From contig CAMDDJ010000008.1 of the NCBI GenBank assembly GCA_945891385.1, positions 1 through 64,000 on the forward strand: a DNA stretch of 64,000 bases, read 5' to 3'. This document shows positions 13,258 through 45,976 of this stretch, piece after piece. This stretch comes from Candidatus Kuenenia stuttgartensis (lineage in GTDB: Bacteria; Planctomycetota; Planctomycetia; Pirellulales; UBA1268). Position 1 is the stretch's first letter. Each line of letters opens with the position of its first letter. The notes beneath the pieces are model-generated. The model saw only the letters and a program-made list of their open reading frames with translations, had not been told where the DNA came from and did no database searches. A program made the position numbers and the translations under genes.

Positions 13258-16200
13258 TCACTCCCAGTCGCAGAGCTGCTCGACGTGCGCCGCTGACCCG
13301 TCGCGGAGCCAGGCGTCGAGCTGCGACACGTCCTTGAGCTGCTGGCCGCGGAGGCGGGGCACCACCACGAAGCGGCTGGTCACTTCCGCCAGGGCCGACA
13401 TGTCGCCCCAGAGCTTTTCAAACTGGGTCACGGGAAACACGTCTTCCTGGCCGTGGCCCCAGCGTTTCTTCACATCCTTGAGCGTCACATACGTCGGCAC
13501 CTTCGCCGCCGCGGCTCGCACAGCCGCCGCCACGCGGGCTTGGTCGGCCAGATCGGCCCGCGAGAGACCGAAGAAGGCGAGCAGCTGGTCGATGTCGATC
13601 CAGGTGGAGAGGGTGTTGTAGAAGCGGAGTTTGAATTCGTCTGCTTCCCGCGGCATGGCCAGGCCTTCCACGAGCCGGGGGCGGCCGTTGACGCGGGCGA
13701 GGCCGCCGCCGCGGTCTTCGATCCGGCGGGGGATCACTTCAAACGTGAGGCAGGAGCCGCCGGCGATGTGGCGGCCGAGGAGGGCCGGGTCGAGGTCGGC
13801 GCCCACGGTGTCGATGTTGTGGAGGAAGAGCCACTTAAGCGCGGGTCGCTCGGCGAGGAGGCGGGCGAGCAGGCCGTTTCGCAGCAGGTTTGGCAGCTCA
13901 TACCAGTGGCCCACGGGGTGGAGGCACTGCTGCGGGAGGTTGTCGGTGTAGTCGCTGCCTTCGCCCGTGCGTTCGGCCCAGCCGATGATCGCCGCGTGGA
14001 GGCTGTCTCGCACCTTCTGCTTCTGTTCGTCGAGCACCTGGTGGGCCGTCTCCTCCCACGCAAACCGCAGGTCGCGGGCCATGGGCACGAGCCTGAGGCC
14101 GATCGCCCGGCCGGGCGAGAGCCTGAGATCCACATCCGGCCCCGCGGGCAGGCGGGCCACGGCCGCGGCGATCTGGTCGTGGGTGAGGTGGCTCGTGGTA
14201 ACGAGATGCGGGATCGCGAGGCCGGCCTGCCGGGCCCGGCGGCGGGTCTTGGAGAGGTGCACCTCCACAAACGACCGGTGCTGGCCGCCGAGCTTCGCGA
14301 AGGGGTTCAGCGCCTTGACCACACCCGCCCCTTGGGTCCAGCGGCTGCCCACGCCGGCGGCGAGCGTCACCACAGCCGCTTCGCCGGCCCGCAGGGCCAC
14401 GAGCCCCCGCGCATGGTGCTCGGCTGCCGTGGGATCGTCGTCGAGTGCGAAGGCCACGTCGTCGTCGGCTACGTCGTCGATCCGGGTCGAGGCGGGGAGC
14501 CGGTTTTGGGCGAGGCCGATTCGGCCGTGGCCGAGGTCGGTGCGGATCTGTTCGTGCTGCACGCGGTCGAAGCCGAGTTCGGCGAGCAGGCTCTCGAGCG
14601 AGCGGCCCCCGGCGCTCGTCACAGGCTTGGGGAAGAGCCGGTCGAAGAGGGCGTTGACCATGCCGGAGAGTTCAGGCTGGGTGCGGCAGGCGGCGGCGAA
14701 GGCGTCGAGCTCGGCCCGGCGGGCGGGCGTGAGCGACTGCCGATCGGCCTGGAGGAGCGCGGGCACGGCGAGCGTGTAGTAGCCCGGGGGCATGAGGGCT
14801 TCGGCGCCCGAGAGCAGGTCGGCCCAGGTGCCCCGGTCGTTGACGGCGAAGTCGTAGACCACCGGCTCCATGGCAAAGGGAAGCGCGTGTTCGAGCTCCC
14901 GCTTCGCCTCCCGCATGATCTCGCCCAGGGCTTCGAGCGCGGCCGGCTTTGCTTCGGGCGAAAAGATAAACCCCATGCCTCCGCCCGACATGCCGCCGAG
15001 CATCCAGAAGCCGCGGAAGCTGTCGCCAAACCGTGCCTTCACCCGGGCGATCAGGGTTTCGGTGTATTGGTTGGTGGCCCAGGGGATGATCGTTTGGATG
15101 GGGCCGAAGAAGTTGCGGGTGGTGGCGGCGGCGATCCGGTCGGCGTCGCCGGCCTCCACGGCTGCGATGATCTCGTCGAGCACGGCAGCCGCCTCCTGGC
15201 GGGCCTCCCATTCGGCCTCGCTTCGCAGCAGGTATTTCTCGGTCACCATCTCCAGGATCGGGCCCACGTTCTGGGCCATGCCGCCGTGTACGAGCACGAG
15301 CGAATCCTGAAGGCTGCCGCCGAGGGCCACGGCGTCGTGTCGGGGCAGGAGCCGGCCGCGGCTGATGCCGTGCTCCGGGTCGCCCGCTTCAGCCGCCACG
15401 CCGCGGATCAGCTTGGCCGCCGGCCACACGCCGCCTGAGTCCTGCCAGCCGCCGCCGCTGCCGCCGAGCCATTCGCCGAGGATCGCCCGGGCGGCCACGA
15501 GCCGGCGTTCGGGCTCGGTGAGCGCTCCGGTAAGCGAAGCCGCCTGGCCGGTGGCCCGCATGCAGACGGCGATCAGGGCGGCGAGCAGGTTCGTCGAGAC
15601 GGCGAGCCGCGAACCCTTGGGGATGTTGTTGACGCTGCTGACGAGCTCCAGGCCCAGGCCCGGCCCCACGAGCCGCTCGAGCAGGGTCTGGAGGCTCGCG
15701 CCCGAGCCTTCGATCCCGGGGGGCACGATCCCCGCCGCGATCACCGCCGCCTTCAGAAGCCCGAGGTAGTCGCGGGCAAAGTCAAACACCTCCGCCAGGT
15801 CGGTGATCTCGGCGGTGGCGGCAAGGTCAACGCTCGTGAGCCGGAGCACCGGCTCGTCGATCACCCGCAGAAACGCCTCCACCGGCGGCTTGGGCTGGGC
15901 GTCGCGGCCGTGCACGGCCAGGTCGATCGACACATTGAGCACCCGCGCCCCTTCGGGATAGTCCATCCCGAGGAAGAAGATGTCGCTCCAGCCGGAGTGG
16001 GAGAGGTCCATCCGCACAGGCGTGAGTTCGCGGAGCACGGGAAACGTGCCTTCGCCGGGGCCGCCCGCGGTGTCGGCCGACGTGCGGGCAAGCAACTCGG
16101 GCCGAATCCGCAGGGCGTGGTCGGCCGGGTGGCCCAGGCGAAACATCCACTGGTTGCCCCGCAGGCTCCGCACGCTCCGCCGCACCTGGTTGGCGAGCGT

Positions 16201-16593
16201 CTGGAGGGCGAGGCTGTGGTAGGCGGCGGCAAGTGCGCTTGAGATCGCGTCGGAGGGCCCGTGGGTTTCCTGATGGGCGGCGAAGGTGTCGATCGCCTCT
16301 TCGAAGCGGCGGTCGAGCAGGTGCTGGTAGCCGGCGAAGGGAATCCGCGCGGCCAAGTCGCCGAACCGGCCCGGTAGGTGGAAGCGGTGGATGGCGTAGA
16401 GAAAGAAGAGCGCCCGCACGCGTTCGTAGAGGTTGCCACTCTCGCGGCGAAAGGCCTCGAGCGCCTCGCACTCCGCGAGCAGCTCAGCCGCAGAGAGCCC
16501 GCGGCAAACGGCATCCACGCTCCCATCGCGAATCGCCGGATCGGCAGCCGTGATGATCTCGACGAGCCGGGAGGTAGCAGGGGCGCTGGTCAT
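13258..16593 (-). CDS. GHMP (L-fucokinase-like) kinase fused to a UDPGP-family sugar-1-phosphate nucleotidyltransferase
   Basis: An 1111-residue fusion. Residues ~190-560 carry a GHMP kinase of the fucokinase type: [11 protein letters not shown] at ~194-204, the ATP loop [17 protein letters not shown] at ~324-340, [17 protein letters not shown] at ~380-396, and the glycine-rich [10 protein letters not shown] at ~533-542. Residues ~735-1105 resemble UDPGP-type pyrophosphorylases: [19 protein letters not shown], and [14 protein letters not shown]. Together they would phosphorylate a free sugar at C1 and convert the sugar-1-phosphate to an NDP-sugar, a salvage route. In Bacteroides Fkp the domain order is the reverse. 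The gene starts 2 bp after the GalU-like gene, so it is tightly coupled. The sugar is not known. Confidence 0.82.
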
Positions 16594-22183: not shown

Positions 22184-25100
22184 TCACTCGATTTCTACGG
22201 CGACGGCGTCACCGGCCGGGACGACGACGTCGATTGTCTCGGCCCCACCCCATGCGTCCGTCTCAAACACGCGGGCCCGCTGCCCAGGTACGAGTTCAAG
22301 GTTTCGCAACGTCACCGTTCGCTCGGCGTCACTCTCGTTGAAGAGAAGCACGAGCCGCCGTTGCCCCTTCTTGAGCACAAGGAGGTCCGGGTAGGCGATC
22401 TGCTCCGATGATGTGAGCTGGTCGGCTCGCTCGCCCTCGAAAAAGAGGTCCTCGTGGGCGGCGATGATCCGGGTGGCCTCGCCAATCCAGTATTGCATGC
22501 CGGCGACGCACTCACCGGCGTTCTGCAGGTCGACGCCGCCCCCGAGGGCGGCGACGATTCGGAGGATCTGGCTCTTCCATGACTTCGGCTGCACGAATCC
22601 GTCGTCGGATAGGACCACCACTTCCTTCCAGCCATCCTTCGCCTCGCTCACGCCGAGAAACGAGAACCGCTGACCGATCACTTGCGGCACTCGCTGGTCG
22701 ACCCGCAACGCCCGCGCCTCGTCGTCGAGCATCTTCTGGCTGATCCCGTTCGCCACGCCATTTCCGGGAAGCCCCACAAACGCGATGTCGGCTTTCCCGG
22801 CGATCTGCGACCAGAAGGGGGCGAATCCGGCCCAGGAGTAGATCATCGAACGCAGGCCGATCCCGTTCACTGCGTCCTTCACCTGGCCTTGGATCTCCGT
22901 GACCTGCCAGTGGTGGAACTCGGCCCATGCTCGATGGTGTTGATCGTGGATCGTGACGTTCGAGAGGTCGGCATCCCGGGCGAGGCCGGCACGTTCGCGA
23001 AACCGCTCCTTGCAGCGGCTGCAGAAACAGAAGCTCGTCCCGCGGTCGGCTCCTCCTTCGTCCCGCCAGGCATGGGCCTCGTAGTCGAGAAACAGGATGC
23101 TGGCAGCCGGCGTCCGGGTCACCTTCTCCGCATAGTTCCTCGCGACGAGCGCTCGAAACTGCTCTCGCCCGGCCGCCAGCATGTACGTGGGGCAGTACAT
23201 GTTGTCCCGGTCGGCATTCCAGCGGCGGGCATCGAAATAGCTCGCCTGTGCGTCGGGCGTGGCGGCCACCCAGCGGAGAAACGCATCCGACTGGTGGCCC
23301 GGCACATGCGACCCATGCAAGGGGAAGTTGTCCGGGCTACCGATGATGGTGCCGAAGCCGTTCGCCCGGAGTTCATCGTAGAACGACCGGAGAAAATCGC
23401 TCCACTGCGGCCCCCAGCCGGGCTGCGTGATCGTGACGGATGCGTAGTTGAAGCCGGCCTCGGCGGCCTGGCCAACCAGGGCCTTCATGTGCTGCGGCGA
23501 GAGCGTGGCGAACAGGATCGGACAGTATTGGCTCAGCAGCACACGCTTCGGCTGCCGGCCGTTGACAGACGGCAGGATCCGCACCGGAATCCGCTGCTCG
23601 CACTCGGTGAAGTTGCCACGTCCGCGGCGATGGAAGTAGAAGGCCGTCGTGGCCCCCACCTCGCCGCCGGCGAGGTGGATCGGCAGCCATGTGTAGCGGG
23701 TTCCGTCGGCGGGAACCTGCTCGGCGGCGTAGGCGATCCGGTATCGCGTGAACGCCTGCCCGTCGCGGCTGATCGGCTCCTCGGTCACGCTTCGGGGCAC
23801 CTCGTTCGTCAGGTGTCGCTGGTAGTACGGCTTGTCGATCCCGAACAGCCGAAACTCCCGTGGCAGGTCGAGCACGAATTCGTAGCCGTCCAGGTCGAAC
23901 GCCAGCGGTGAGTAGAGGGCCAACAGCATGTTGTCGACTCCGTCACGCGAGACGCCCCACTCGCTAACTCGCGGCAGAATGCAGCGGTTCGGCCCGTAGG
24001 GCGCCTCGTTCCAGAGGAGCACCTGCCGAAACACGGCCACCCTCGCCCGTGTGGCCTGGGCCCACATGAATCCCGCCGGATCAGGCCGCGCGACCGCCCA
24101 TGCACCGTCGTCGAACTCTACGTCTTGCCACCCAGGCGTCTCGCGATCAGATACCCGCCAACGGCCGTCGGCCTCGGGTTGGCCGATAATCCGCATTCGA
24201 ACCCGCGGTCGGGCTCCGGCCGCCGTCGCCCTAACGGTCACTCCCACCAGCCCTTCCCCGATCGGGGCCGTGCCCACGCCATCGGCGATCTTCACGGGTC
24301 TGCCGCCGACGAACAGTTCCGCTTCGGCCTGGACCGCCTGCACCGCGATCCGCAGGTCGCGGCGGGGGGCGACTTCGTCGAGAACGATCCCCGGGTTCTC
24401 GGCCTGGGCGAACGTGAACGACGCGTCGTCGATCACCGCTTCGGCGTCGGTTCCGTAAAGCACTACGGCCATCACGGCGCACTTCAACCGCTTGTCGGCG
24501 GGGCTATACACGCAGCGCAACTGCTGCCACTCGTCGGTCAACTCGAGCGTCGGCTGGTCACGGAGAAAATCCGTGCCGATCGGGTTCATCGCGTCGTACT
24601 CATAGACGTTGAGGGCCAGTTTCCCGGTGCCCCGCGCCCAGATGGAGAGGCGGTACGTACCGGCCGGTTTCACTGTGTGCTTTGCGGCGCTGAACACCCG
24701 GGCCTCGTCGTTACCCGCAGCCACCCGCAGCCGCAACGCCCGCGCTCCGGCGCGTGCCCGATCGCTCGACATGACGTGGCCGCTCTGTCGCTCCCAGCCG
24801 GTGACGTTGGCCGCATCAGTGATGCGTTCGAAGCCACCATCGCTGACGAGCTGTCGCACCTCGGGAGGCGAGGCAGGCTGCTGATCGTTCCACGAGATCA
24901 CCACGCTCACCACGGCATCGGCCGTCTTGTCAAACACCACGTCAGCCACGACGCCGCTGATGATCTCGGCCAACGCCGCCTCCCGCCCATCGACGGTGAT
25001 CCTCACATTCGGCGAGACCGGCAGCGTCCAGAGTTTCTCGGCCCGGCGGACCACAATCTGCGACTTCGCCGCGTCGACGGCTTCTACGACGACGCGCGTT

Positions 25101-25198
25101 GCCGCCTGCCCATAGGCGAGCCCATGAAAAGCCGCCGCCGCGACGGTCGCCAGCACGAGCACGAATCGACTTCGATCCACGAACCATACTCCTGGCAT
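22184..25198 (-). CDS. large secreted protein with CBM-like and TIM-barrel-like regions
   Basis: A 1004-residue protein with a signal peptide (hydrophobic core FVLVLATVAAAAF, likely cut after AYGQA near residue 32). Residues ~115-265 (DGGFERITDAANVTGWE onward) look like a galactose-binding/CBM4-9-type beta-sandwich. A second beta-rich region follows. From ~560 to ~900 the pattern (GFNYASVTIT, LFLDYEAHAW, CFCSRCKERF) resembles the glycosidase-like TIM barrels of GH42-related families. The C-terminus is a small beta domain. It is exported and may act on polysaccharide. No catalytic pair could be assigned, so enzyme activity is uncertain. It lies in the glycan locus, 130 bp after the acyltransferase. 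Confidence 0.7.
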   Translation of the reverse strand: MPGVWFVDRSRFVLVLATVAAAAFHGLAYGQAATRVVVEAVDAAKSQIVVRRAEKLWTLPVSPNVRITVDGREAALAEIISGVVADVVFDKTADAVVSVVISWNDQQPASPPEVRQLVSDGGFERITDAANVTGWERQSGHVMSSDRARAGARALRLRVAAGNDEARVFSAAKHTVKPAGTYRLSIWARGTGKLALNVYEYDAMNPIGTDFLRDQPTLELTDEWQQLRCVYSPADKRLKCAVMAVVLYGTDAEAVIDDASFTFAQAENPGIVLDEVAPRRDLRIAVQAVQAEAELFVGGRPVKIADGVGTAPIGEGLVGVTVRATAAGARPRVRMRIIGQPEADGRWRVSDRETPGWQDVEFDDGAWAVARPDPAGFMWAQATRARVAVFRQVLLWNEAPYGPNRCILPRVSEWGVSRDGVDNMLLALYSPLAFDLDGYEFVLDLPREFRLFGIDKPYYQRHLTNEVPRSVTEEPISRDGQAFTRYRIAYAAEQVPADGTRYTWLPIHLAGGEVGATTAFYFHRRGRGNFTECEQRIPVRILPSVNGRQPKRVLLSQYCPILFATLSPQHMKALVGQAAEAGFNYASVTITQPGWGPQWSDFLRSFYDELRANGFGTIIGSPDNFPLHGSHVPGHQSDAFLRWVAATPDAQASYFDARRWNADRDNMYCPTYMLAAGREQFRALVARNYAEKVTRTPAASILFLDYEAHAWRDEGGADRGTSFCFCSRCKERFRERAGLARDADLSNVTIHDQHHRAWAEFHHWQVTEIQGQVKDAVNGIGLRSMIYSWAGFAPFWSQIAGKADIAFVGLPGNGVANGISQKMLDDEARALRVDQRVPQVIGQRFSFLGVSEAKDGWKEVVVLSDDGFVQPKSWKSQILRIVAALGGGVDLQNAGECVAGMQYWIGEATRIIAAHEDLFFEGERADQLTSSEQIAYPDLLVLKKGQRRLVLLFNESDAERTVTLRNLELVPGQRARVFETDAWGGAETIDVVVPAGDAVAVEIE

Positions 25199-25328: not shown

Positions 25329-26585
25329 TCATCCCGAACGAAGGGCCTCGTACGCAGCGGTAACCTTCGCCCCGACCGTACGACTCGTGCGCACGGCCCA
25401 GTCGTCGAAAACGTCGCTGTAGACCTGACCTCCTACAAGCGCGACGATCACCACCGCCAGTGCGATCCAGGCTTTGGTGGGCTCGTTTGGCGGCGCACCG
25501 CCCGACGAGGCCCAGAGCACCAAGGAACTACCGACCACGGCGATAATCGGCAAGTGGATCAGGTAGAGCCCTACGGAAATCCGGCCGAGATAACGCGGGA
25601 GCCTCGTCGACAATGCTCCGGCAAGCGGGGGCACGACCACGGTCGCCACGAACGCCATGACCCCCAGCACGGCCGAAGGCCCGCCGACGAAAACGCCGTC
25701 GAGTGCCCTCACCATCTCCGCCGGGACGATCGACTCCTTGCGGAGCAACGAATGGTGCGGCACCGAAGCCATAGCGAGAAACAGGCACACGAAGGGGGCC
25801 CAGAGAAGGAGTCGGCCGCCGCGGCTTCGCCTGCCCCAGAGCACGGCGCGCATTTGATCCTCGTTGTCGGCACAAGCGATGCCGCAAATGAAAAACACCA
25901 CGTAACCGACCGCCGCATTCTCGTTGGCTCTGGATGCCAACACGAACAGCCCTGCGATAACTGCCAAAACTAGTGTTCGTTGCCGACGTGAAAAGGCTCC
26001 CGTGGCGACCACGATGCAATATGTCGCGTAGGAGGCCCATAACTCGATGAAAAGCGTCCAGCCCACTTCGTTGAACTTGGCGGTAAGGCCAACGAGCGGA
26101 TCAAATGCGGCCTTCACCAACTCCTTTGCCGAACATTCGCTTCGCATAGTGGCCAAGGTCGGCGAATCGAGGATCTCGCCCGCTTTTCGGCTCTGATAGA
26201 GACCGCCGAACATGAGCATCGCCGCCAGGACCGCGCTTGGGTGCGCCGCCAGGATGAGCCGAAACGGCCGCTTCGCGAGATCCCCTGCGATGGCGGAAAG
26301 GCGGGGCGCGGGCCGCAGATGTCGCTTCGAGAGAACAAACCCGCTCAGAACGAAGAAACAGACCACCGCGGCATGTCCATTGAGCAACAGGGCAAGCGGT
26401 GTCTTCTGAACGGCGAATCCGAAGGCCGACTTCACGGAGCCGACGCCGTGGCATTCGGCATGCCAGAAATACCCGAGGGTGTGATACACCAACACGAGCG
26501 CGGCTGCGATGCCTCGCAGACCGTCGAGGTGGGCATATCGCTCCACTGCAACCGCTTTCTCACTAGGCGATTCGCCGGCCATCAC
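25329..26585 (-). CDS. acyltransferase 3 family (OafA/YrhL-like) membrane O-acyltransferase
   Basis: A 418-residue integral membrane protein with ~10 helices. The N-terminal signature YAHLDGLRGIAAALVLVYH contains the conserved Arg and the proposed catalytic His. FFVLSGFVLSKR and YLIHLPI near the end are typical. It is predicted to acetylate (or otherwise acylate) glycan hydroxyls at the inner membrane. An ATG codon at 26582 is an alternative start. It is the last clear enzyme of the leftward glycan run before the secreted protein. Confidence 0.88.
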   Translation of the reverse strand: MMAGESPSEKAVAVERYAHLDGLRGIAAALVLVYHTLGYFWHAECHGVGSVKSAFGFAVQKTPLALLLNGHAAVVCFFVLSGFVLSKRHLRPAPRLSAIAGDLAKRPFRLILAAHPSAVLAAMLMFGGLYQSRKAGEILDSPTLATMRSECSAKELVKAAFDPLVGLTAKFNEVGWTLFIELWASYATYCIVVATGAFSRRQRTLVLAVIAGLFVLASRANENAAVGYVVFFICGIACADNEDQMRAVLWGRRSRGGRLLLWAPFVCLFLAMASVPHHSLLRKESIVPAEMVRALDGVFVGGPSAVLGVMAFVATVVVPPLAGALSTRLPRYLGRISVGLYLIHLPIIAVVGSSLVLWASSGGAPPNEPTKAWIALAVVIVALVGGQVYSDVFDDWAVRTSRTVGAKVTAAYEALRSG

Positions 26586-31286: not shown

Positions 31287-32630
31287 TCACGGCTTGCGGA
31301 GCCGACGCATCATCGCGGGCATGCCCGCAAGTACCATGCCGCGGGTGAGTATGTCGGCGAGCGGCCGGGTCGCCGGGAACAACGCGTTGACAGGAATCGT
31401 CGCGAGAAAGGTGGCGGCGACGGTCGTCGCTGCCGCGCCCAGTGCGCCATGCTGGGGGATGAAGATGACATTCAGCGCGACGTTGAAGACCGCACCGATC
31501 ACCGTGTTGCGAAAACCAGCCCACAACATGCCGCGTCCGATCAGCCACGTCGACTGGGCGACGCCCAGAATCGCGAACATGTTCGAAAAGACATGCACCC
31601 GCAGCACCGGCGCCGCTTCGCGGTAGCCGTCGCCGAGCAGAACCTGAATAGCTTCACCCGGCCAGATCGCCAAGGGCACTATGAACAGGTAGCTGCACAC
31701 CATGACGATCGATACGGTTTGAATCAGGGCGGCCCGATAGGAGGTGTCGTCGCGTTGCTGCGCGCGGTAGAGAAACGGGGCTGCCGACGCGAGGATGGCG
31801 AACGGCACGAATCGCCACATGGACGACAGCCGGACCGCCGCCGCGTAGAGCCCGATCTGGTGATCGGCCACCTCGCGACTCGCAGCGAGCACTCCAAGCA
31901 GCAGCACGTCTGACTGGTCATAGATGAAGACGGCGAATCCTGTGAGGATGCTCGGGATCGCCTCTCGCATCAGTCCGCGGGCCGTCGTCAGGTCGAAGCG
32001 CCAGCGTTCGCCTCCCGTCGTCAGCACGTAGACCGCCAGCAGCCCCGCCCCGAGGAGGATCGCGTCAAGGGCGTTGGCGAACAGGAAGTAGCGGATCGGG
32101 GCGTCAATCAACACACCGATGATCTTTACGCCGGCTGCCACCAAACCGGCCGTGAGCCCGCACGCGGTCACGACCCGCGAGCGGCTTAGGGACTGGAAAT
32201 AGGGGTCGAGAACGAGAAGCGGTGCCGACCAGAGCGCGAGACCGGCCACGGCCGCGTCGCCCAGCGTCGCGGTGGTTTGGTTGGGAACGAGCAGGAAGGC
32301 CGCCACGCCGAATCCGTAGGCCGCAAGTGTGCCCGCCGCCCGCATCGCGAAGGCAGTGCCCAGCATGACCCCGTTCGACCGTCCACCTACCAAATGGCGA
32401 ACGAGGTTCTCCCCGAGTCCGCACGTGGACAGCGGCACGAAGAGCGACGCCGCGGTCAGCGCGTAGTTGAACGCGCCGAGGCGATCCACGCCGAGCTTGC
32501 GGAACACGAGGATACCGACTACGAGCGCGATCAACAGGCGGCCGATTCGCTCTCCGATGATCCAGCCCGCATTGGCAATCGCGGGATGGTCGACGAAGGC
32601 TAGGAGGAGCCGGCGGCGGCCACTGATCAC
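31287..32630 (-). CDS. Wzx-like polysaccharide flippase
   Basis: A 447-residue membrane protein with ~12 helices in the pattern of the MOP/Wzx superfamily. The N-terminus NAGWIIGERIGRLLIALVVG, VFIYDQSDVLLLG and WLIGRGMLWAGFRNTVIG are typical. It would flip undecaprenyl-linked repeat units across the inner membrane. Its ATG overlaps the upstream glycosyltransferase stop by 4 bp. Together with the O-antigen ligase/polymerase of this locus it points to a Wzx/Wzy-type assembly route. Confidence 0.87.
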   Translation of the reverse strand: MISGRRRLLLAFVDHPAIANAGWIIGERIGRLLIALVVGILVFRKLGVDRLGAFNYALTAASLFVPLSTCGLGENLVRHLVGGRSNGVMLGTAFAMRAAGTLAAYGFGVAAFLLVPNQTTATLGDAAVAGLALWSAPLLVLDPYFQSLSRSRVVTACGLTAGLVAAGVKIIGVLIDAPIRYFLFANALDAILLGAGLLAVYVLTTGGERWRFDLTTARGLMREAIPSILTGFAVFIYDQSDVLLLGVLAASREVADHQIGLYAAAVRLSSMWRFVPFAILASAAPFLYRAQQRDDTSYRAALIQTVSIVMVCSYLFIVPLAIWPGEAIQVLLGDGYREAAPVLRVHVFSNMFAILGVAQSTWLIGRGMLWAGFRNTVIGAVFNVALNVIFIPQHGALGAAATTVAATFLATIPVNALFPATRPLADILTRGMVLAGMPAMMRRLRKP

Positions 32631-41278: not shown

Positions 41279-42404
41279 GACTCAGTACCATGCCCGCACG
41301 CCAGGGAGCCGCCGGAGGCTCGCGGGATTGCATGGCCGAGGTGACAACGTCCAAGAAGTAGCGGGCGACGCTCTCCGCCGAGAAGGAGCGGGCGCGCGCG
41401 ATGATGCGTCGCCGACGATCGCCTCCAACCGGCCCCTCAGCGACGATCCTTCGAAGCGACGCGGCCAACGCGGATACGTCGCCCGAACGGAACGTTTCGC
41501 CGGAGTCCGGGTCGGCAAGCAGGTCTGCCGCCCCACAGGTGGTCGAGCACAGCACGGGGGTGCCCGCCGCCAAGGCCTCGTTCACAACGGCGCCCCAGCC
41601 ATCGAACCGACTCGGCAGGACGAGAAGGTCGTGGCACGCCATCACGGCAGAGATCGACTCGTTGGAAACGACACCCCGCCACGACACCGCCTGCGCAAGC
41701 CCCAAACGGCTGGCACGGGCCCGGAGCTCGGCATCGGCATGGCCGGTACCGACGATCGTGAGCGGAATCGCCGGCGGCGGCAGGCGCGCCAGCGCGTCGA
41801 GGAGAAGGTCCACACCCTTGCGGCGAATGAGTTGCCCGACATAGATCGCTCGAAAGCCGCCGTCGTCGTGCGACGGCAACTCGAGGTGCGCGGGAGTGAC
41901 GTAGGCGAAGGGGTGGACACGATCGGCTGGAAAACCGGCCGCGCGGAACCACGACACCCCGAGCCGGCCCATGGCCAGGATGAACGACGTCCGGCGGCCA
42001 TACGCAACGGCGTCGCAGGCGGACCGCACCCGTCGCACGACGCCCCTCACCCCCTGCCCGTCGTGCGCCTCCGAGATCACGCCGAACGCCGCCCGGCCGG
42101 CGGCAACCCGCCCGAGTGCCGACCGCACCGCCGGATGACATCGAAACCCCGAGAACACGTGCAGGGTCGTCGGCGCGTCATCCGCGACGAGCCGTTCCCG
42201 TGCCGGATCGTCGTGGAACACCTCGCGAACCGCGGACGAACTGGCCGATCGCCAGCCCTGCGCGGCGCGTTCCGCGACGAGACGATCTGCATACACGGCG
42301 ATGACCTCGGCCCTGGAGGCCGTCGCCAGCGCCTCGAGAAAGGGCACCTGGTGCATCGACGGCATGGGCTGCCAGAACACGAAACGCGTCGGTGAGACGA
42401 ACAT
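41271..42404 (-). CDS. GT4-type glycosyltransferase
   Basis: A 377-residue GT-B enzyme starting at the ATG at 42404, which overlaps the upstream stop (TGATG). The start FVFWQPMPSMHQVPFLEAL is typical. The donor domain carries YVGQLIRRKGVDLLLDAL, IVGTGHADAEL, and FDGWGAVVNEALAAGTPVL with the E-x7-E motif partly kept. It forms a coupled pair with the next GT4 gene. Confidence 0.88.
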   Translation of the reverse strand: MFVSPTRFVFWQPMPSMHQVPFLEALATASRAEVIAVYADRLVAERAAQGWRSASSSAVREVFHDDPARERLVADDAPTTLHVFSGFRCHPAVRSALGRVAAGRAAFGVISEAHDGQGVRGVVRRVRSACDAVAYGRRTSFILAMGRLGVSWFRAAGFPADRVHPFAYVTPAHLELPSHDDGGFRAIYVGQLIRRKGVDLLLDALARLPPPAIPLTIVGTGHADAELRARASRLGLAQAVSWRGVVSNESISAVMACHDLLVLPSRFDGWGAVVNEALAAGTPVLCSTTCGAADLLADPDSGETFRSGDVSALAASLRRIVAEGPVGGDRRRRIIARARSFSAESVARYFLDVVTSAMQSREPPAAPWRAGMVLSHA

Positions 42405-44578
42405 CACCGGCGGGCACTCTCGTCGCCCGCGTGCGCCCCTGGCGGCAGATACCGTACGAGTTGCGCGGAGAAGGCGGCGTCGGGTGTCATGAACGGGCGG
42501 TCCCACTGCCGATCCGCGTCGGCCCAGACCTCGAACGTGAAGCCCGCGTCAATGCAGGGAACGGCCAACGGCTCCAACTGCCGCAGCACCCGCGTCTTGC
42601 CGATCCCCGCGCCCACGAGGCACAGGTCGGGCTTCATCGACAGGTCTTGGAGATCAAGGCGATCCGCGAAGGCGCGGGTCGGACTGATGCCGAGCCAGTC
42701 GACGTGCGCCGCACCAAGGTCCAGGAGACTCCGTCGAATCCCGGCTTGTTTCTCGCCTTCCGCGGAATGCACCACGAGCAGCCGCCTGCCACCGAGGAGA
42801 CCTGCCGACCGGGGGCCCCTCAGAAGGGCGTACACGAAGTAAAACGGCACGTAGCTCGCATGATTCAGGGCCAGCCCGCTCCGCCGCACCCAGTCGCGAA
42901 GGGCGGGGAAATACGCCTCGTGGAACGGTTCGCGACCGTACGTCAGGTGCATCGCAAGAATGCCGTGGCGGGCGAGATGCTCGAGATCGTCCTGCATCAC
43001 CGGCCTGAGAGCCTGGCACTCCGCAACTGTCAGTTCGCCAGAAGAGATTCCCGGAGCGGTCTCCGCATGGAAGCCCGGCGACCCGTGCCGCCAACGCCAT
43101 GCCGTGACTCGAGCCGCCGCCGCGGCTCGCCGCACATACGGCAGGCGCGGGTTCCACGACCTCGAACCGAAGAGAAACTCATACTCCCCATCGGCGAGCC
43201 TACAGACGGGGAGATATCGCCGACCGACTGCGGCTTCGACGCGGGCCGCAAATCCCGCGAACCAGGCCCTCGAGTCAATCGTCGCCGGCGCCAGCGCGAA
43301 ATCGTCGGACCGATGCTGCCGCTCAAAGCCCGGAACTACGAACGGCACGGCCGTAGGGAAGACCCTGCACGATATCGGCAGCGCCTCGGGCCCCTGAGCG
43401 ATGAGCCCTCCGACTACGCCCATGAAGGGCCGCTCAAACAGCAGATAGAGTGGAATGCTGATCGCAACGATGACCGTGCCGAAGGCCGCCATCAGAGCAA
43501 GAAATGCCCACAGACCTCCTCCGAGCGGTGCCAAACCCCCACACAGCCAAGGCCCCGCTGCTGCCATCAAATATGCGTGATACAGGTAGATCGTGTAACA
43601 CATGCCGCCAAGCACCACGAGCGGCGGCCAAGAAAGGATGCGAGAGTGCCAGCGGCCTGCAATGCCGGAATAGCAGAAACCGACCAGCGACACGGCGAGC
43701 CCACAGGTTGCGGCCAGCCCCGCCTGCCGGCCGAACCATGCAACGCCAGCGACGCACGGCAGTGCTAGCAGGTCACCTGCTGTCGAGCAGCCGAGGCTGG
43801 CAGAGCGCACGTGGACATCAGCCAAGAGAAATCCACCGAGGAAGAATGGCAGAAACGGTAAAAGTGTGAGCCGTGCCCGGCCATCCCCGAATCCAGTGGC
43901 CATCATCCAATCGGCGAGAAGCAGCGACGCCACTCCGACTCCCGATGCGACGCACACACGGGTGGCCCGATTCGGAAGCTTGTAGATCACAGCGAGCAGT
44001 GGCGCGAGAAGATAAAACTGAATCTCAATCTCAAGCGTCCACGCGACGAAGTTAATCGTGCTGAAGGTCCCGTACACTAAGCCATGGCAGTAGAGGAGGC
44101 TCGCCACCAGATGGGGGCCAATGTCGGCGAACTGCTCCCCTCGCTGAATCACGTACGCGGCCGCCAAAATCAGCAGATTGATCACATAGGGCGGTTCGAT
44201 TCTGACAACGCGGCGGAGCAGGTACGACCTGTACCCTATATGAGGGCTTCCGTGCTCGGCCGCGCGGGCGAAGGGGAGCCCGAGAACAAAGCCGCTGATC
44301 ACGAAGAAGAGGTTGACGCCCAACGCTCCGTAAAGCGTGAACCCCTCGATCTCAAGCCGCCGAAAGGACTGAGCCTGGGGCGAGGCCGGCGCCTGGATCG
44401 CATAGCCCGCGCAGTGGTGCAGCAACACCGCTGCAATCGCATACCAGCGAAGGCCGTCTACCTGCGGGAGGAATTCACGGGAGGACGTCCGTCTCCGCAA
44501 CAGCAAGTAAAGCCATCGGCCTATCCGTCCTCCAGCAGCAGTATCAACGTCGACCGCTCCGCTATGCCGCTCGCCCAT
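42404..44578 (-). CDS. acyltransferase 3 domain fused to a putative GT-D-fold (DUF1792-like) glycosyltransferase domain
   Basis: A 724-residue protein. Residues ~36-390 are an AT3 acyltransferase: FLPQVDGLRWYAIAAVLLHH with the catalytic His, NLFFVISGFVLGL, and YTIYLYHAYL. Residues ~430-724 form a soluble domain with CRLADGEYEFLFG (DGE at ~463-465) and PDLCLVGAGIGKTRVL followed by CIDAG. These resemble the D-x-E motif and C-terminal strand of GT-D enzymes of the DUF1792 type. That assignment is inference from motifs. The ATG at 44578 has GGAG 4 bases upstream and is preferred to a GTG at 44590. The soluble part likely faces the cytoplasm. Confidence 0.78.
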   Translation of the reverse strand: MGERHSGAVDVDTAAGGRIGRWLYLLLRRRTSSREFLPQVDGLRWYAIAAVLLHHCAGYAIQAPASPQAQSFRRLEIEGFTLYGALGVNLFFVISGFVLGLPFARAAEHGSPHIGYRSYLLRRVVRIEPPYVINLLILAAAYVIQRGEQFADIGPHLVASLLYCHGLVYGTFSTINFVAWTLEIEIQFYLLAPLLAVIYKLPNRATRVCVASGVGVASLLLADWMMATGFGDGRARLTLLPFLPFFLGGFLLADVHVRSASLGCSTAGDLLALPCVAGVAWFGRQAGLAATCGLAVSLVGFCYSGIAGRWHSRILSWPPLVVLGGMCYTIYLYHAYLMAAAGPWLCGGLAPLGGGLWAFLALMAAFGTVIVAISIPLYLLFERPFMGVVGGLIAQGPEALPISCRVFPTAVPFVVPGFERQHRSDDFALAPATIDSRAWFAGFAARVEAAVGRRYLPVCRLADGEYEFLFGSRSWNPRLPYVRRAAAAARVTAWRWRHGSPGFHAETAPGISSGELTVAECQALRPVMQDDLEHLARHGILAMHLTYGREPFHEAYFPALRDWVRRSGLALNHASYVPFYFVYALLRGPRSAGLLGGRRLLVVHSAEGEKQAGIRRSLLDLGAAHVDWLGISPTRAFADRLDLQDLSMKPDLCLVGAGIGKTRVLRQLEPLAVPCIDAGFTFEVWADADRQWDRPFMTPDAAFSAQLVRYLPPGAHAGDESARR

Positions 44579-44590
44579 CGCGCTCCGCAC

Positions 44591-45976
44591 CTATTTCACG
44601 GCCGGCAAAGGTGCCGCTACGGTCTCCGTATCGGCTAGTGCCATACCGAGAAATAGGAACAGGAAGTATGACAGGCTGAGCATTTCCAGTAGGTATGGAT
44701 TGATGATGAGCCCGAGAATCAGCGTCCACACAAAAATCGTCGAGGCCGCAAGTGGCCACGATTCCGGAGCCCGTTTTCTCGCCGCCCGCAACCCGAGGAT
44801 GATCAAGCCAAAGAAGACCACTGCCGGGACGAGGCCGATAACTCCGAACGACGCAGCCGTGTCGAAGAAAAAGCTGTGGCCGCCCACCTCTGTCATGTCT
44901 TCCTGGAATCCAAACCCAACAATCGGATGCTGCAGAAACGTCTCGAATGACCGCCACAGCAACACCGAACGACTACTCGAGCCGAGGCTCATCTGTTCGA
45001 TAAGGTCTACGCCCTCTTGGCGGTAAAAGATGGCGGTGACGATCGACACAGCCTTGCCAAAAGCCTGTGAAGCGGCGCTCTCGGACGCTGACAGGCTCTG
45101 CCTGAGGACTTCAAGGACGCCGATGCTCACAGCGCTTACCGCCAGCCATTGCAGGCGGTATGCGAGCGACCTCACCGGGGCAAACAACCCCAACAGCACG
45201 GACGCCACGCCCGTCATGAGCACCACTGCCCCGAACCCCGAAAGCACGGCTGTGATGACGAACGTCGCCTGCACGACGAGGACCAGCAGCCGCATCTGCC
45301 GGGAAATCATCGGATAGATCCGGAAAAGTTCGATGGCGAAGAAGAGTAAGAGGGGAGAAAAGTAGATGAAGCAACTGATGTAGGCTTTTGCCCATTGACT
45401 CGCATTCACGTCGGTGTCGATCCCTTGCGTCGCAATCTGCTGCTGCGCCCGGTCGAGGCCGCCTTGCGCACCGGAAATGAACCCGAAGAAGTCGGGAATG
45501 CACATCAGCCAGTACGCCGCAGCGATGAAGAGTAGGAACGTGCGCTCGCGGGCGGGATGTTTGGCGAGGGTGTAGCCGCAGAGCACCATCGGAATGCATC
45601 TCAGAAGGACGATCGGCGGGCTCGACGTAGTGAACAATGCCGAGATGTCGTAGAACCGGCCAGCGATCATGTTCACGACCATCACCAGTTCGAATGCCAG
45701 CAGCCAGAGCATCGCCGGTCGGGTCAGCAAGCGGGTCAAGCCTGCAGAGACCAGCATCATGGCCACGACAACGGCGCCCAAGCCCTTGTAGGCAAGGTCC
45801 ATCCGCCCCCACAACTGGTAATGTGCCACCACGAGCGTGAGCCCACAGATGATCCAGAACGGGGGAAGTGACGACGGAACCGCCCGCGCCCGTGCCGCCC
45901 AGTCGATTGCCGCCGCCGATGATCGGGGCAGCGGGCCATCGAGCGACACAGGCTGAGTGAGTCCTACAGATGCCAT
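44591..45976 (-). CDS. O-antigen ligase/polymerase (Wzy/WaaL-like) membrane protein
   Basis: A 461-residue protein with about twelve hydrophobic segments and a long periplasmic loop (about 290-360) ending in HPIVGFGFQEDMTEVGGHSF. The G-x-G-F and H-S motif is the hallmark of the O-antigen ligase/polymerase family. It would polymerise flipped repeat units or join the glycan to an acceptor. The two roles cannot be told apart by sequence, and no lipid A core genes are nearby. It is immediately upstream of the acyltransferase fusion. Confidence 0.85.
   Translation of the reverse strand: MASVGLTQPVSLDGPLPRSSAAAIDWAARARAVPSSLPPFWIICGLTLVVAHYQLWGRMDLAYKGLGAVVVAMMLVSAGLTRLLTRPAMLWLLAFELVMVVNMIAGRFYDISALFTTSSPPIVLLRCIPMVLCGYTLAKHPARERTFLLFIAAAYWLMCIPDFFGFISGAQGGLDRAQQQIATQGIDTDVNASQWAKAYISCFIYFSPLLLFFAIELFRIYPMISRQMRLLVLVVQATFVITAVLSGFGAVVLMTGVASVLLGLFAPVRSLAYRLQWLAVSAVSIGVLEVLRQSLSASESAASQAFGKAVSIVTAIFYRQEGVDLIEQMSLGSSSRSVLLWRSFETFLQHPIVGFGFQEDMTEVGGHSFFFDTAASFGVIGLVPAVVFFGLIILGLRAARKRAPESWPLAASTIFVWTLILGLIINPYLLEMLSLSYFLFLFLGMALADTETVAAPLPAVK

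Follow-up and report, generated by a model that had tools for sequence, protein, structure and literature searches.

The window, a stretch of 64,000 nucleotides from Candidatus Kuenenia stuttgartensis, encodes a protein that joins an acyltransferase 3 (AT3) domain to a C-terminal domain of predicted GT-D fold, a combination of which neither the literature nor any other genome searched gave an example. Reviews of AT3 architecture name fusions with SGNH, with alanine racemase and with the eukaryotic NRF, and no glycosyltransferase (PMC9558356, PMC9833829, PMC12423673). Our own searches of open-licence papers returned no AT3-glycosyltransferase fusion, in agreement with the original prediction, which knew of no described AT3-GT-D protein. 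We consider it probable that the product works in a Wzx/Wzy-type pathway as a membrane-tethered, cytoplasmic glycosyltransferase of GT-D fold linked to an AT3 acyltransferase, where the activities, the substrates, the side of the membrane and the shared glycan are what we infer. A natural fusion of this kind would name the activity that partners an AT3 domain and would offer a single protein for tests of topology and acceptor choice; for AT3 domains that lack an SGNH tail, the AT3 literature leaves open how the acceptor is selected and reached (PMC9558356).

The fused gene

The gene is one open frame in which an in-frame ATG follows four codons past the GTG start. The open reading frame upstream ends at 44591 and abuts it, while the ATG of the downstream glycosyltransferase gene overlaps its stop codon (TGATG). 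The original prediction of an AT3 protein with an extra C-terminal domain at 42404-44578 is upheld by this frame, by a Pfam match to the AT3 family and by homologues of the C-terminal domain that stand alone in other genomes. The features discussed below are the following.

42404..44590, minus strand: whole fused gene, one open frame of 728 codons from GTG (the alternative ATG start at 44578 gives 724 aa)
43448..44464, minus strand: AT3/TmAT domain, aa 43-381 (PF01757, ten-helix model and HGSNAT-like fold)
44414..44449, minus strand: R48-X10-H59 motif in TMH1, with DxxR at 45-48 (invariant in alignment A5; literature)
44201..44212, minus strand: R127xxR130 motif on the cytoplasmic side of TMH3 (invariant in A5; literature)
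43391..43447, minus strand: junction, where the AT3 'FERPF' end of TMH10 meets the GT-D part (model)
42407..43390, minus strand: C-terminal domain of predicted GT-D fold, aa 401-728 (stand-alone homologues, model and DUF1792 fold match)
43184..43192, minus strand: D467-G468-E469 (R464-x-x-D-G-E), candidate Asp-X-Glu metal site (conservation among homologues)
42830..42853, minus strand: Y580-x-PFY-x-VY587, signature of the C-terminal family (invariant in alignment A2)
42542..42607, minus strand: G662-x-G664 ... D681-x-G683, C-terminal strand region (invariant in A2; hhalign match with PF22882-type proteins)

The N-terminal half

The N-terminal half is unambiguously a standard AT3 domain with the ten-helix TmAT fold, and from this we infer acyl transfer. 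PF01757 (Acyl_transf_3) is the sole Pfam domain in the fused protein, matching aa 43-381 over positions 3-324 of the 326 in the profile (E 8.7e-28); the only NCBIfam match is a weak one in the same region. Conserved with other AT3 domains (alignment A5) are R48-X10-H59, R127xxR130, F95xxxxG100, G253 and Y335, with the pairs R48/H59 and R127/R130 invariant. Such AT3/TmAT residues, R-X10-H and RxxR among them, have been named conserved or essential (PMC7448272, PMC9833829, PMC12423673).

Each half was folded separately, and mixed full-length alignments of AT3-only and GT-D-only proteins were discarded for folding because they misaligned the domains. The model of aa 1-440 contains ten membrane-length helices at moderate confidence (pLDDT 69.3). 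Foldseek alone gave no significant match for it; a second look with VIA placed human HGSNAT first (Z 18.5, rmsd 4.8 over 300 residues) and GWT1 behind it (Z 10.1), the first unrelated chain after them scoring 4.9. HGSNAT and GWT1 are relatives of solved structure, grouped with AT3 by PMC12423673.

The protein is built up to a point like the AT3-SGNH enzymes (OafA/OafB, OatA, PglI), with an N-terminal ten-helix AT3 domain carrying R-X10-H and RxxR, a soluble C-terminus of catalytic type and a surface glycan context. It differs from them in its tail, which has a predicted GT-D rather than SGNH fold, follows without an 11th helix or periplasmic linker and is predicted to be cytoplasmic, whereas in AT3-SGNH proteins an extra 11th helix puts the tail outside (PMC9558356, PMC9833829). 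An AT3-SGNH identity was rejected for the fused protein, as no SGNH match was found in it at E up to 10, the predicted fold of the tail is the other one and no further transmembrane helix lies between the one at 359-398 and the soluble domain. The VanT-type fusions of AT3 and alanine racemase offer another parallel, in that AT3 is joined to an unrelated soluble enzyme domain, which there is a racemase in place of the GT-D fold (PMC9558356).

The C-terminal half

On its predicted structure, we place the C-terminal half in the GT-D fold class as a putative glycosyltransferase, belonging to an unclassified family rather than to PF08759. The AlphaFold model of aa 401-728, built from a ten-sequence alignment, is of high quality (pLDDT 86.5, pTM 0.87), and its sole significant Foldseek matches in the PDB are both DUF1792 (4phr, 3.1e-5; 4pfx, 1.0e-4; the next at 0.037). 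VIA gives the same ranking, with 4phr (Z 13.6), 4pfx (13.5) and 5v4a (12.7) ahead of TagA/TarA (10.2-10.8) and of unrelated chains (4.0). The superposition with 4phr has an rmsd of 3.5 over 215 residues at an identity to DUF1792 of 15-16%. A resemblance to DUF1792/GT-D enzymes had been predicted, together with the proposal to settle it by structure prediction and a search against the GT-D fold; that search returned DUF1792 as the best match, and neither another fold class nor a match to another transferase was found. The nearest competitor is TagA/TarA (GT-E, WecB/TagA/CpsF), whose Rossmann-like core is similar (Z up to 10.8), but TagA lacks Asp-X-Glu and belongs to a fold class distinct from GT-D (PMC6493773).

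Sequence searches take one less far. The ~330 C-terminal residues (~401-728) have no match in Pfam or PHROGs, and PF08759 is absent at E up to 10 from the window protein and its homologues, so that a placement in PF08759 by sequence was not borne out; the PF08759 profile was silent in every genome of the class and in every control, which makes its absence there uninformative. No GT-D chain came up when PDB sequences were searched, whether the query was the C-terminal protein or its profile or a PF22882-type protein or profile. PF22882, the 'GT-D-like' family, is weakly matched by four relatives, the best being L015 (E 2.2e-4, 21.1 bits against a gathering score of 27), and the window protein itself has no PF22882 match in the Pfam search. 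Aligned by hhalign with PF22882-type proteins, the C-terminal profile scores E 2.5e-5 at a probability of 75%, where an AT3 alignment used as control gives an E of 0.86. These matches suggest a weak but consistent tie to PF22882, which would make its members remote sequence kin, although the similarity stays below the curated cutoff and the aligned PF22882-type proteins lack the NYxPFYFVY signature. Among the PF22882 matches, a 610-aa protein of L019 (1480-3312, minus strand; G459) has a C-terminal part above the cutoff and an N-terminal part that looks glycosyltransferase-like by eye; it is possibly another fusion of a glycosyltransferase with a GT-D-like domain.

The motifs singled out by the original prediction, a D-G-E and a conserved C-terminal strand, hold up in the family. 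D-G-E, preceded by R464, is present in eight of the nine homologues that cover it, the other one having HGE, and Y580-x-PFY-x-VY, G662-x-G and D681-x-G are invariant (alignment A2). The Asp-X-Glu motif of DUF1792 binds Mn2+ (PMC6493773), and D467-G-E469 is, by its motif, a candidate for the same role. The closest known counterpart by fold is the DUF1792/GT-D domain of dGT1 (4pfx, 4phr, 5v4a; PF08759), which shares the fold and the candidate motif but differs in its ~16% identity, in the lack of any Pfam-level match and in its partner, a GT-A domain rather than AT3; dGT1 itself is a two-domain fusion (PMC5063993).

A GT-D fold need not mean a glycosyltransferase, and the domain could be a transferase of another kind or serve in binding or regulation. 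We think this quite improbable: the sequence is indeed far from characterised enzymes and without a PF08759 match, and one homologue lacks the Asp of DGE, but in the clusters read the genes around the family serve glycosyl transfer or glycan export, and its R..DGE, GxG and DxG motifs are nearly invariant.

Distribution of the C-terminal family and of the fusion

Stand-alone homologues of the C-terminal domain, all at 27-54% identity, occur in two further genomes from the same family (Planctomycetia records) as well as in metagenome-assembled genomes (MAGs) labelled Bacteroidota, Victivallaceae, Myxococcota, Puniceicoccaceae and Acidobacteria. Because they exist in other genomes, the C-terminal ~328 aa are a real domain and not a chance extension or low complexity. 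The family is sparse: three of 99 near relatives have it, and among 392 genomes of the phylum it was found only in the window's own. Two other phyla (241 and 199 genomes) yielded the seed genome only, a further one (193 genomes) the seed and two matches unsupported by reading frames, and another (178 genomes) the seed and one weak match (E 6.9e-4), seen as a match only. When 84,980 species genomes were scanned by pattern, nine loci came up; viral contigs, phages and plasmids held no relative of the domain.

Every other member that was read stands alone, so the genome survey that had been proposed places the AT3 fusion in the window's own genome only, a MAG. Those long AT3 frames of the family that were taken to Pfam proved to be AT3-SGNH. 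Two Myxococcota loci (L056, L057), whose open frames measure 460 and 722 aa, were considered as second fusions and rejected, the frames being unrelated genes or shadow frames. We regard the C-terminal family, an unclassified GT-D-fold group with R..DGE and NYxPFYFVY scattered over several phyla, as a candidate new CAZy/Pfam family.

Gene surroundings

The fused gene lies inside a long minus-strand polysaccharide cluster. Its neighbours encode GT4 glycosyltransferases, FkbM methyltransferases, a carbamoyltransferase, a UDP-sugar dehydrogenase, sugar-phosphate transferases (a bacterial sugar transferase and Glycos_transf_4), a DegT aminotransferase, a Polysacc_synt_2 dehydratase and a Wzx-like flippase (31287-32630). 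Directly upstream of the fusion, 44591-45976 (minus strand) encodes a 461-aa hydrophobic protein without a Pfam match; that it might be a Wzy-like polymerase is a guess from its hydrophobic sequence.

Homologues elsewhere have similar company. In G044 (L045, G044:C19) the stand-alone C-terminal gene is accompanied by six further genes in the order of the window, at 45-73% identity; a pair of ABC-2 permease and ATPase genes stands in front of it where the window has AT3, and an AT3-only gene lies further along the cluster. The two clusters thus have similar glycan assembly genes and another export route, an ABC exporter pair there and a Wzx-like flippase here. In G037 (L046, 9843-9859) the start of the homologue overlaps by 17 bases the end of an AT3-SGNH gene, whose protein matches PF19040, and this overlap suggests translational coupling of the AT3-SGNH and GT-D-like genes. 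In L010 and L011 the homologue is found directly behind a MatE-like flippase. The C-terminal domain therefore travels with genes for the assembly and export of lipid-linked glycans, repeatedly near AT3.

The junction

The 'FERPF' end of TMH10 leads directly into the GT-D part through a modelled helix at aa 359-398, with no 11th transmembrane helix and no linker domain. Just past FERPF lies an in-frame ATG overlapped by an out-of-frame TAG (ATGGGCGTAG). Here it must be considered that an indel from assembly or base calling joined two overlapping genes, an AT3 gene stopping at the TAG and a GT-D gene starting at the ATG. With one base wrong, ATGGGCGTAG would be a typical start/stop overlap, of the manner seen in G037, and all other homologues of the domain are stand-alone; moreover, the source genome is a draft MAG of 150 contigs. 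Yet codon usage on either side of the junction points to one and the same frame, frame 0 scoring highest across it (codons 376-405: 5.7 versus -3.2 and -5.6 in the other frames), and an AT3 protein ending at the TAG would stop 2-3 residues past ERPF, where AT3-only relatives run roughly 10-25 residues longer. There is no independent sign of a sequence error, and the other frames of the operon are intact. We therefore hold an artificial join to be unlikely, and should the fusion turn out to be an artefact of assembly, neither the new GT-D-fold family nor its proximity to AT3 genes would be affected.

Proposed mode of action

In the reading that we prefer, a membrane-tethered glycosyltransferase joined to AT3, the AT3 domain would take an acyl group from cytoplasmic acyl-CoA and pass it to a sugar hydroxyl on the extracytoplasmic face, following the general AT3 model. 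As the last helix (aa 359-398) continues directly into the soluble domain, with no eleventh, the tail should be cytoplasmic, which is the site of nucleotide sugars. There the GT-D-fold domain, probably metal-dependent, would extend an undecaprenyl-linked oligosaccharide by one sugar taken from a nucleotide-sugar. By fusion, a glycosyltransferase of a normally soluble kind would be held at the membrane next to the acyltransferase that modifies its glycan, and glycosylation and then acylation would proceed in sequence on opposite faces of the membrane. This reading is limited by the single MAG that carries the fusion, the missing PF08759 match, the one HGE homologue, the pLDDT of the AT3 model and the Z score of TagA.

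Possible, although with a smaller chance, is that the fusion serves as a tether only and the AT3 and GT-D domains act in separate glycan steps without a shared substrate. Our estimates for this and for the preferred reading overlap, because a mere tether accepts both domains and denies their shared target only. Each domain occurs alone in relatives, the closest stand-alone relative of the AT3 domain (G025, 37%) lies outside any polysaccharide cluster seen, and the active sites of the two domains would lie on different faces of the membrane. A common pathway, on the other hand, is suggested by AT3 and GT-D-like genes that share one cluster in G044 and overlap in G037.

The original prediction went further in proposing that one protein could both glycosylate and acylate the same lipid-linked sugar. 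Such action of both domains would be sequential and is speculation, because AT3 models put acylation across the membrane from the cytoplasmic GT-D domain. Its strongest form, a bifunctional membrane-spanning enzyme whose GT-D domain would glycosylate an undecaprenyl-linked unit inside and whose AT3 pore would acylate that unit in a coupled step, seems to us rather doubtful.

Three other genes of the region, all on the minus strand, deserve mention. A second AT3 gene at 25329-26585 is AT3-only (PF01757, E 8.5e-24), and the cluster may thus carry two acyltransferases. The sole match of a 1004-aa protein (22184-25198) is a weak one to CBM_4_9 (E 0.0017), and a 1111-aa protein (13258-16593) has nothing assigned but a weak similarity to UDPGP near aa 888-1005 (E 8.6e-8).
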